From positions 1 through 35,056 of the forward strand of contig JANXWY010000022.1 of assembly GCA_025350905.1 (NCBI GenBank): a stretch of 35,056 bases of DNA, written 5' to 3'. The position numbers and the translations under genes were made by a program. This document shows, one piece after another, positions 4,768 through 7,794 of the stretch. The notes under the pieces are model-generated. The model was not told the DNA's origin and did not search any database. It saw nothing but the letters and a program-made list of their open reading frames with translations. Each line of letters starts with the position of its first letter. Within the stretch, counting starts at the first letter, position 1. The DNA is from Verrucomicrobiota bacterium (GTDB lineage: Bacteria > Verrucomicrobiota > Verrucomicrobiia > Limisphaerales > JADLHS01).

Positions 4768-4798
4768 CCCTCTCCTCCATTCAGAATGGAGGAGAGGG
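4768..4798. repeat. Perfect hairpin, left flank of DUF559 gene
   Basis: The arms CCCTCTCCTCCATTC and GAATGGAGGAGAGGG are perfect reverse complements around a single centre base. Together with the adjoining CCGGGGAGAGGAGG it forms an inverted copy of 5321-5365 on the other side of the DUF559 gene. Over the compared 45 nt only two bases differ. There is no T-run, so a repeat is favoured over an intrinsic terminator. Confidence 0.85.
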
Positions 4799-4824: not shown

Positions 4825-5277
4825 TCACGAGCGCGACCGGCACATCGGCGGCTCGGCTGGCTTCTCAAGCAACTGTTCCGGATTTGGCGGCACGAAACGG
4901 TGATTCCACTCCTTCCTCATCATTTTCACAGAACCCGTGCGACGATGCAGTGCGGCCCAGATATCCAACAGGATGCCATCCCGATTCTGGTGCCACTGAT
5001 GGTTCCAAAACCGTAACTCCTCAATGCCCTCCGCCGCCAGAAACCTGGCCCGCGCTTCATCGCGCTGCATGATGTCCGGCAACCCATGCTGAAAACCGTC
5101 CAGCTCGATCGACAGCCGGGCGGCCGGGCAGAAAAAGTCTAGGAAGTATTTCCCAAGCGGATGTTGACGGCGGAATTTAAAACCGGCGAGCCGTCCCGCC
5201 TTGAACGCGCGCCATAATTCCTTTTCTTCATCCGTCTGGTCGCGGCGGAGTCGGCGGGCGACGGCGGTGGGATTCAT
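4825..5277 (-). CDS. DUF559 domain protein, predicted Vsr-like/PD-(D/E)XK endonuclease
   Basis: This 150-aa protein matches the DUF559 family. It has an N-terminal helix ARRLRRDQTDEEKELWRAF, then GFKFRRQHPLGKYFLDFFC, SIELDGFQHG and the C-terminal LRFWNHQW block. The acidic residues in FLDF and IELDG and the histidine in DGFQH occupy the positions expected for the active site of very-short-patch-repair-like nucleases. Function in this family is not established; roles in repair, restriction or mobile elements have been suggested. It is the only - strand gene in the left third and is bracketed by inverted hairpins at 4768-4798 and 5335-5365, so it may have entered as a unit. The C-terminal 20 residues run beyond the usual domain end. 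Confidence 0.88.
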   Translation of the reverse strand: MNPTAVARRLRRDQTDEEKELWRAFKAGRLAGFKFRRQHPLGKYFLDFFCPAARLSIELDGFQHGLPDIMQRDEARARFLAAEGIEELRFWNHQWHQNRDGILLDIWAALHRRTGSVKMMRKEWNHRFVPPNPEQLLEKPAEPPMCRSRS

Positions 5278-5334: not shown

Positions 5335-5365
5335 CCCTCTCCTCCATTCGGAATGGAGGAGAGGG
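5335..5365. repeat. Perfect hairpin, right flank of DUF559 gene
   Basis: CCCTCTCCTCCATTC and GAATGGAGGAGAGGG pair perfectly around one centre base. With the preceding CCTCCTCTCCCCGA it is the reverse-complement copy of the element at 4768-4812. It lies 57 nt upstream of the DUF559 start codon and about 200 nt upstream of the divergent O-GlcNAcase operon. Confidence 0.85.
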
Positions 5366-6944: not shown

Positions 6945-7547
6945 ATGAAGCCAAGGAAGCCCATTGAATCCCTGATTCTCGACCTGCGCGGCCAGAAGGT
7001 GATTCTGGATGCCGACCTGGCAGAACTTTACGGCGTGCCGACGAAAGTTTTCAACCAAGCTTGCAAACGGAATCGGCAGCGGTTTCCCGAAGATTTCGCG
7101 TTTCAGATTACGGCCAAAGAGTTTGCCGGCTTGCGGTCGCAGTTGATGGTTGCGAACTCATCGCAAATTGCGATGAGTTCATTACAGGTGGCTGAAGACG
7201 GAAGCTCTGTTCCGAACTGGTCACAATTTGTGACCAGTTCCAAAAAGCATCGCGGGGCTGCCTATCGCCCATGGGCGTTTACCGAACACGGCGCGCTCAT
7301 GGCGGCGAACCTCCTCCGCAGTGATCCGGCGGTGGAAATGAGCGTGTTTGTGATTCGTGCGTTTGTGCGCATCCGCGAACAGATCACCGCCAATGCCGCC
7401 GTGCTCAAGCGGTTGGCGGAAATTGACAAGACGCTGTTGGAACACGATTCCGCTTTGCGGGATGTTTATCGGAAATTGCTCCCCTTGTTGCAACCGTCCC
7501 CCGAACCACCCCGCCGCCCGATTGGCTTCAACCGCGATAAAGAATAA
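6945..7547 (+). CDS. ORF6N-domain DNA-binding protein
   Basis: This 200-aa protein has an N-terminal ORF6N domain (about 8-115). It shows the family pattern LRGQKVILDADLAELYG, FNQACKRNRQRFPEDFAFQ and, later, YRPWAFTEHGALMAANLL. ORF6N is a KilA-N-related fold common in phages and in bacterial chromosomes and is thought to bind DNA. Residues 71-79 and 91-99 (NSSQIAMSS, NWSQFVTSS) are encoded by two perfect 27-nt palindromes 60 nt apart, an insert that splits the domain. The C-terminal third is predicted helical or coiled-coil (KRLAEIDKTLLEHDSALRDVYRKL). It begins 10 nt after the O-GlcNAcase stop and ends 10 nt before the next gene, so it is co-transcribed. Its role in this operon is unknown. 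Confidence 0.85.
   Translation: MKPRKPIESLILDLRGQKVILDADLAELYGVPTKVFNQACKRNRQRFPEDFAFQITAKEFAGLRSQLMVANSSQIAMSSLQVAEDGSSVPNWSQFVTSSKKHRGAAYRPWAFTEHGALMAANLLRSDPAVEMSVFVIRAFVRIREQITANAAVLKRLAEIDKTLLEHDSALRDVYRKLLPLLQPSPEPPRRPIGFNRDKE
7154..7180. repeat. Perfect 27-nt palindrome inside ORF6N gene, copy 1
   Basis: GAACTCATCGCAA, one centre base, then TTGCGATGAGTTC. Arms are 13 bp with no mismatch. It shares the outer GAACT...AGTTC and inner CAA...TTG with copy 2, while the five bases between differ and covary. Confidence 0.95.
7214..7240. repeat. Perfect 27-nt palindrome inside ORF6N gene, copy 2
   Basis: GAACTGGTCACAA, one centre base, then TTGTGACCAGTTC. It starts exactly 60 nt (20 codons) after copy 1, in the same reading frame. 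The middle five base pairs (GGTCA/TGACC) replace CATCG/CGATG of copy 1 while pairing stays perfect. Confidence 0.95.
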
Positions 7548-7557
7548 ATTTTCCACC

Positions 7558-7794
7558 ATGCCCGAATCCCGTCCAGACAGCTATATCCTCAGCGACGCCG
7601 CGGAACGCGACCTCGCCAAACTCATCGGCTCCAGCAAACCGCTCCCGGAGAAGTACCGCTGCTGCCGCTTCGACGACGAACGCGAAGTCGAACTCGACTG
7701 GAAAGGTATGACCCGAGAAGTCTGCCCCGCCATCCTCCCGTTCCAGACGCTAAAATCCATTGACGAGCCCCGGGAGGAAAAGTGCCAGATGTGA
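7558..7794 (+). CDS. Small protein of unknown function (78 aa)
   Basis: I do not firmly recognise this gene. The protein has an N-terminal helix (LSDAAERDLAKLIGSSKPLPEKY), then a strand-rich part (RFDDEREVELDWKGMTREVCPAILPF) and ends in IDEPREEKCQM. By memory it resembles the leading segment of some site-specific adenine DNA methyltransferases, so it may be a stand-alone version or relic of that segment, but this is weak. No methyltransferase motif is present. It sits 10 nt after the ORF6N gene and 8 nt before the GNAT gene, which supports real translation within the operon. It has two adjacent cysteines and a further pair of single cysteines but no clear metal-binding spacing. Confidence 0.6.
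   Translation: MPESRPDSYILSDAAERDLAKLIGSSKPLPEKYRCCRFDDEREVELDWKGMTREVCPAILPFQTLKSIDEPREEKCQM

Follow-up and report, generated by a model that had tools for sequence, protein, structure and literature searches.

Spo0J/ParB is a helix-turn-helix protein whose palindromic site, parS, lies within the spo0J coding sequence; parS is conserved and is found at several chromosomal places. In phage lambda, the gene of the DNA-binding O protein carries inverted-repeat sites for its own product in its middle, and extra sites lengthen the protein in frame (PMC7466680); the repeats of ori-lambda, the replication origin, are imperfect, measure 19 bp, number four to six and hardly differ from one another. 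Excerpted accounts also describe Rickettsia palindromic elements, which measure about 100-150 nt and are inserted in intergenic regions, RNAs and coding sequences (PMC4316617), and the horizontally spread PARCEL coding repeats, tandem repeats of 25 residues that have dyad symmetry in coding DNA and are mostly recognised by DUF285 (PMC2996958). Here we analyse a stretch of 35,056 nucleotides from a Verrucomicrobiota bacterium (GenBank assembly GCA_025350905.1, contig JANXWY010000022.1; the whole stretch is called the window below), in which a gene with an ORF6N domain contains two perfect 27-nt palindromes. From covariation between the proteins and the palindromes we consider it likely that the ORF6N protein recognises these palindromes inside its own gene, and binding there may limit its transcription.

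What the ORF6N locus shares with lambda O/ori is the arrangement only, in that a gene contains inverted-repeat sites for its own product, and binding is a prediction here. Lambda O/ori is the nearest precedent, and by this analogy origin-like or mobility roles are alternatives. In contrast to lambda, ORF6N genes have one to three near-perfect palindromes of 27 bp, the specificity of which changes with the protein, and they occur in many phyla; no sign of a replication origin was noted, although no search was aimed at an AT-rich one. Unlike parS, the ORF6N site varies together with the helix, and most copies were found within the gene or close to it. The ORF6N and Rickettsia elements have in common that coding sequences maintain them in frame as palindromic DNA, but the former is 27 bp long, occurs mainly in one gene family and is tied to the helix of the protein. 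A link to DNA recognition, as proposed here, was not found in the excerpted PARCEL account (PMC2996958). Among the entries that our literature searches listed, none pointed to an in-gene cognate site or a recognition rule for ORF6N, Bro-N or KilA-N. If the proposed self-recognition is right, this widespread phage-type domain, which is grouped with the KilA-N and Bro-N phage regulator domains, gains a testable target and a predicted specificity, and the conserved family stretch LRSQIVTS would largely be the translation of a DNA site.

The ORF6N gene of the window (6945..7547, + strand) encodes 200 amino acids (aa) that match Pfam PF10543 with E 3.1e-28 and 98.3 bits, above the curated cut-off of 27.8, and the protein thus belongs to the ORF6N domain family. 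Site 1 (GAACTCATCGCAAATTGCGATGAGTTC, 7154..7180) and site 2 (GAACTGGTCACAATTTGTGACCAGTTC, 7214..7240) have no strand; each is a perfect palindrome of 27 nt with 13-bp arms that are fully complementary around one base (13+1+13). A repeat search reported site 1 as such, and both sites were recovered in the count of perfect arms given below. Direct reading of the sequence confirmed the 60-nt spacing of the initial annotation, from start to start, as well as the common frame, and gave the same encoded peptides, NSSQIAMSS (codons 7155-7181) and NWSQFVTSS (codons 7215-7241). Its statement that the middle five base pairs differ completely had to be corrected: when base-pair positions are counted outward from the palindrome centre (k1, k2 and so on), only k4, k7 and k8 differ, and k5 (C) and k6 (T) are common to both sites. 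For perfect arms of at least 13 with loops 0-3, the window gave a count of 6 and 20 first-order shuffles gave 0; the window count includes unrelated palindromes at 4768 and 5335 and may enter one palindrome repeatedly when multiple loop lengths fit.

Both palindromes are members of a 27-base element that is carried inside nearly every ORF6N gene examined. The order-level sample comprised 146 relatives of the window's order, 52 of which have ORF6N; the public-genome sample was the best 80 of at least 573 relatives, and a viral scan added 16. At least one short palindrome was present in the scanned stretch at 29 of the 32 first loci (three from the window's own genome). The supposition that homologues carry palindromes at this gene position holds for the 130 of 138 distinct ORF6N genes that have an in-gene palindrome at threshold, and not for every gene; the suspected variation in copy number was found, with none to three in-gene copies; and homologues that encode the same peptide without palindromic DNA, the sign of a coincidence, are not the pattern. 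The main site is present in 66 of the 74 named-collection loci with an anchored gene, covering 13 named phyla and unranked ones (NCBI phylum), of which single labels may be wrong because most loci are metagenome assemblies. Its position in the gene is constant across phyla. Among 150 genes anchored on the residues FTE, a palindrome with a score of at least 10 was present before FTE in 125 genes, upstream in 39 and after FTE in 11; for palindromes with a CAAnTTG core the figures were 92, 31 and 4. Substitution of upstream for in-gene sites did not reach significance, 4 of the 8 genes without an in-gene site having an upstream one (Fisher p 0.21); among these 8 genes, L097 (L numbers are our labels for loci) has a palindrome before FTE that was missed through a misplaced start. 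In the window gene, the position of the relatives' first in-gene site falls on the LRSQL codons (7131..7145, + strand) in an alignment of six proteins, and inspection of the window sequence there found no recognisable palindrome now.

The suspicion that constraint acts on the DNA rather than on the peptide is borne out by synonymous shuffles, by the use of two reading frames and by base frequencies in non-coding copies. In 132 of 147 genes, the best palindrome of the homologous region beats all 100 synonymous-codon shuffles made with the gene's own codon use, with a median score of 12 against a null mean of 3.9. One frame is used by 147 sites (usual peptide LRSQIVTSS) and the next by 16 (a class reading EVVTNCDHL), and therefore one DNA element yields two different peptides. 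At each of k1-k13, the 48 non-coding sites upstream have near-identical base frequencies to the 130 frame-0 sites within genes. Across k2-k12, 1,400 of 1,452 cells pair and the rest are 12 G-T, 20 A-C and 20 other, a rate of pairing that is high partly by choice because sites were selected on symmetry at k2-k13, where 10 or more of the 12 positions had to pair. Symmetry falls off beyond k13, with pairing in 114 of 132 unique sites at k13 and in 56 at k14; since k14-k16 were outside the selection, this edge does not stem from the choice of sites, and neither does the absence of a G-T excess. Sites within one locus are modestly more similar to each other than in shuffles (0.633 versus 0.550, maximum 0.605 of 500), and 3 of 94 pairs are identical.

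The letters of the site follow residues of the protein. In a mutual information (MI) analysis of 136 aligned proteins, from which the palindrome peptide was excluded, against the site positions, the top pair was residue X of the helix motif TK.LN[X].VKRN with k4 (z 34). The site reads TCACAA with Q at X, TCGCAA with E, TGCCAA with R and TTCCAA with K. At k4,k5, Q goes with A,C (73 genes), E with G,C (36), R with C,G (10) or C,T (2) and K with C,T (7); the exceptions at k4 are Q with G (2), E with A (1) and R with G (1), and 4 genes have other residues or gaps. This table agrees with the usual residue-base contacts, which are Q-A, E-C, R-G and K-G. In this first set (136 genes over the site threshold, 132 of them bearing Q, E, R or K), k4 is as the residue predicts on both halves in 128/132 (shuffle mean 55.8, maximum 74), and k4 and k5 together are so in 124/132. 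A further relation joins k7 to the residue at the position of K34, where K goes with G in 77/77, G, F, I, S or E with A in 24/25 and R with A in 17/27. By MI, wing residues before FTE covary with the outer arm, and the commonest forms of these classes are GRRY with TTGA, H.KY with TTAA, FSP with AGGT, DPRF with AACC and G..YRP with AACT.

An AlphaFold2 model of the window protein was built from 59 sequences (mean predicted local distance difference test, pLDDT, 83.9). It has helices at 22-29, 33-42, 57-78, 114-124 and, as a long one, 127-182, with strands at 52-54 and 110-112, and its layout is an N-terminal helix-turn-helix-like domain, a low-confidence stretch and a long C-terminal helix. 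The predicted recognition helix TKVFNQACKR (codons 7041..7070, + strand) is model helix 33-42, holds the columns that covary most with k4, k5 and k7, and includes both K34 (codon 7044-7046) and Q38 (codon 7056-7058). The predicted wing GAAYRP (codons 7254..7271, + strand), which covaries with the outer arm k9-k13 by MI, is followed by model strand 110-112. Mean pLDDT is 66 for the block with the site-1 peptide (71-79) and 45 for that with the site-2 peptide (91-99). Site 2, the predicted cognate site of the window protein, fits the rule with A,C at k4,k5 for Q and G at k7 for K; its outer arm AACT is common to 6 genes, 5 of which have the G..YRP wing.

The rule also describes genes that were gathered after it had been written down. 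This later set consisted of 68 loci from other genomes of the phylum, with 72 open reading frames (ORFs) matching the profile; the FTE anchor was missing from 6, and 1 (L262) fell short of the site threshold of 9/12 pairs used here (10/12 in the first set). Of the 65 ORFs with a site, 1 had no residue in the column, leaving 64 testable. On both halves k4 is right in 60/64 (shuffle mean 21.3, maximum 36-38) and k4 with k5 in 57/64, in a set that is incompletely independent in ancestry because its new genes all come from the window's phylum; K goes with G at k7 in 43/44. These counts use the alignment, the initial regular expression having caught 24/58 test genes, of which 24/24 fit at k4. On a tree built without the helix columns, residue X has undergone a minimum of 43 changes and k4 a minimum of 41. 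Supported branches give 8 independent pairs for E/G, 6 for Q/A, 8 for K with G at k7 and 5 for R or K with C, the last too few for significance alone; within pairs the site either goes the predicted way or does not differ, and none is reversed.

Site classes were compared with the regular expression, which found the residue in 142/193 ORFs, so that the 107 main, 24 extra and 48 upstream sites compared are a part of the total. The rule fits 105/107 main in-gene sites (shuffle mean 44.5, maximum 61) and 21/24 extra in-gene sites (shuffle mean 13.5, maximum 20). Among true frame +1 sites it fits 14/15; the list had held 19 genes with 18 fitting, and four frame-0 sites (L160_3180, L139_2680, L137_5341 and L156_1333), mis-framed because their loci hold two ORF6N genes, were removed. 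As the same DNA change alters a different peptide in frame +1, a contact within the protein is disfavoured as the cause of the covariation. Two sequence features of a self-encoded cognate site are found together, namely retention at the DNA level within coding sequence and letters that follow the DNA-reading residues.

Because the residue-to-base rule holds and no independent pair is reversed, the ORF6N protein very probably binds the palindrome inside its own gene. Among the three options that had been put forward initially, a small mobile palindrome, a self-binding site and a diversification site, the rule favours the second, and nothing was found that points to the third. In the mechanism we propose, the site is kept as DNA inside the gene, between the codons of the recognition helix and those of the wing strand before FTE, as the shuffles show, and its letters follow the helix, as the statistics show. 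A dimer would in all likelihood bind the 27-bp site with one subunit per half; helix residue X is predicted to contact k4/k5, the K34 position k7 and the wing before FTE k9-k13. Binding may then limit transcription of the gene as a roadblock, sometimes together with upstream copies. Incoming further copies would be equally limited, and a gene that moves between unrelated places would thereby bring its own dosage control.

Several observations weigh against this account. Some ORF6N copies lie within a few nt of unrelated genes, which makes a promoter of their own doubtful. Upstream non-coding sites (up to 200 nt) fit the rule on both halves in only 26/48 cases, and on the left half 28 fit against a shuffle mean of 22.5 and a maximum of 31; this is within the shuffle range and does not show upstream sites to be cognate to their gene. 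In the window, site 1 (TCGC, A at k7) mismatches its own Q38/K34 protein, for which TCAC and G at k7 are predicted. The model puts the site-1 peptide at the end of the low-confidence helix 57-78 and not in a loop. Foldseek returned zero matches to the model at E <= 0.001, and the best VIA-align hit has Z 5.9, in a range that is possibly accidental; several DNA-binding domains are among the VIA-align rows. The hits include a granulovirus Orf22 domain (Z 5.9), SKI/Dachshund domains (Z 4.8-5.6) and RacA (Z 4.3-5.0), all at such possibly accidental values.

Since upstream copies ignore the rule, they make a poor case for classical promoter autoregulation, and most genes were not found to have a cognate site at their promoter or start, an upstream site within 160 nt being present in 36 of the 138 genes. 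Four or five upstream palindromes with differing arms precede one ORF6N gene at each of L022, L054 and L065. As for site 1, no second place with fewer than 3 mismatches to its half was found in the window's own genome, and the other two ORF6N proteins of that genome (L001 and L002) likewise bear Q; therefore site 1 may be a relic or the target of another reader. It departs from the prediction for its own protein on both halves, and its symmetry is nonetheless perfect.

The strongest rival keeps the self-binding and changes its purpose: the site would serve origin-like initiation or nucleation, as the iterons of lambda gene O do, or would mark the gene for moving or for excluding rivals. ORF6N genes standing alone beside unrelated genes would suit such a role, as would upstream sites that are not cognate and the absence of the window copy at the same place in two relatives. 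We nevertheless hold it to be rather unlikely, given that there are one to three sites only, that most copies come from genome assemblies and not from known replicons, and that a Pfam search of the window protein gave neither a nuclease nor a transposase domain.

Far less probable is a small mobile palindrome of the Rickettsia palindromic element or miniature inverted-repeat transposable element (MITE) type, which would have been inserted in frame and then spread. Copy number does vary, outer-arm types recur across coding and non-coding copies, and copies lie upstream of ORF6N genes, upstream of atpG in two genomes and at a few lone places. Against this, the window's own genome of 6.27 Mb has the 17-base form GKTCRCAANTTGYGAMC three times, twice within ORF6N genes and once immediately ahead of one (reversed-pattern control, 0), and a degenerate pattern was found in 47 of the 146 order genomes, 39/52 with ORF6N and 8/94 without (the reversed control matched in one genome). 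The site also keeps the same codon position across phyla, and an inserting element would not track a helix residue of the protein. The dispersed multi-copy presence in unrelated genes that characterises such elements was not found in these genomes, where a few lone copies exist, and we rejected a freely mobile palindrome as the main explanation on account of the few copies away from ORF6N genes. Among the matches listed for the degenerate pattern in genomes without ORF6N, L037 is a gene of Bro-N type that has one copy inside it and three upstream, L036, L043 and L044 are lone sites, and at L039, L041 and L042 the matched pattern was not surrounded by a palindrome that our script could recognise. 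Of the places in genomes that do have ORF6N, two (L045 and L048) resemble remnants of an ORF6N gene and two (L046 and L047) are lone sites. At L038 (1504) and L040 (1543), an intergenic ORF6N-type palindrome lies a few tens of nt upstream of atpG, and an ORF6N gene was not found in either genome.

Least probable of all, and only just conceivable, is selection for an RNA or single-stranded DNA hairpin whose arms are free to vary if paired, because, although variable positions stay paired, arms differ within one locus and window site 1 is symmetric despite the mismatch to its protein, G-T (G-U in RNA) pairs are not favoured among the departures from pairing at k2-k12, non-coding copies likewise conserve the palindromic core, and pairing alone leaves unexplained why protein residues predict the arms.

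Recognition of an in-gene palindrome by its own product may extend beyond ORF6N, as a similar design is seen in DUF1016 genes and in some Bro-N genes. From 70 DUF1016_N loci, 47 ORFs were found by pattern, 45 of them distinct, and 43/45 have at least one palindrome of at least 10/12 pairs (a count made without shuffles); in a test of 30 loci, 16/24 recognised genes beat all 60 whole-gene synonymous shuffles. Sites within one DUF1016_N gene are alike (0.79 versus 0.37 between genes), and 15/32 pairs are identical at k3-k9 (40 genes). In these proteins the bracketed residue of WS[V/T/K]R.LERQI covaries with k3 (V with A 14 or T 3, T with G 11 or T 3, K with C 8, A with G 1), at z 11.9 for 40 genes with an effective number of about 18 and without a tree control. 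For Bro-N, 6/9 ORFs found by pattern in a sample from 30 loci beat all 60 shuffles. We tentatively propose, as somewhat short of an even chance, a general design in which ORF6N, DUF1016 (YhcG-type nuclease) and Bro-N genes carry an in-frame palindromic address that is read by their own protein; reader and address would change together, the genes would pass from phylum to phylum singly or in the company of restriction-modification genes, and the address would serve self-limitation, rival exclusion or movement. If this is true, sequence would suffice to derive family-wide DNA-recognition codes, since the reader and its target are both visible in each gene. The DUF1016 results point to the same design in a nuclease family. 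The DUF1016_N loci L222-L251 and L320-L359 have in-gene 25-bp palindromes of the form ATTnTnnnnnCACTG...; a single gene often has at least two of them, and their arms match. Bro-N genes (L192-L221) have at least three in-gene palindrome types, including GGGGCAAATTGCCCC and GACCATTTCGTTGA..., and one encodes SQLVTNCNQL.

Two relatives, whose upstream genes have 86% and 84% protein identity, have the same flanking DNA on both sides and lack the window copy; the stretch in between measures ~940 nt in the window versus 113 and 105 nt in these two. Just downstream in the window lies a 78-aa ORF (7558..7794, + strand) that appears to be what is left of the 5' part of a DNA methylase gene, with 64% and 61% tblastn identity to L195 and L196. 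Alone it has no family match; the longer forms at L195 and L196 (320 and 302 aa) stand behind a Bro-N gene and run off the stretch retrieved, and that of L195 matches Pfam N6_N4_Mtase. NCBIfam has no name for the 78-aa ORF or for the ORF6N protein, which PHROGs labels as an anti-repressor of the transcription-regulation class, and a profile search of solved structures gave only coiled-coil-like matches to its long C-terminal helix. Elsewhere, among 20 neighbours scanned, ORF6N adjoins N6_N4_Mtase (L096) and HsdM (L149), and in Pedobacter (L153) the gene lies between those of dihydroxy-acid dehydratase and a thiamine-pyrophosphate enzyme. At L153, L135, L137 and L116, ORF6N genes are ~30 nt or less from unrelated housekeeping genes. 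The window also contains a DUF559 nuclease-like gene (4825-5277, minus strand) with a perfect 31-bp palindrome on either side, at 4768-4798 and 5335-5365; the two, CCCTCTCCTCCATTC[A/G]GAATGGAGGAGAGGG, are nearly the same.
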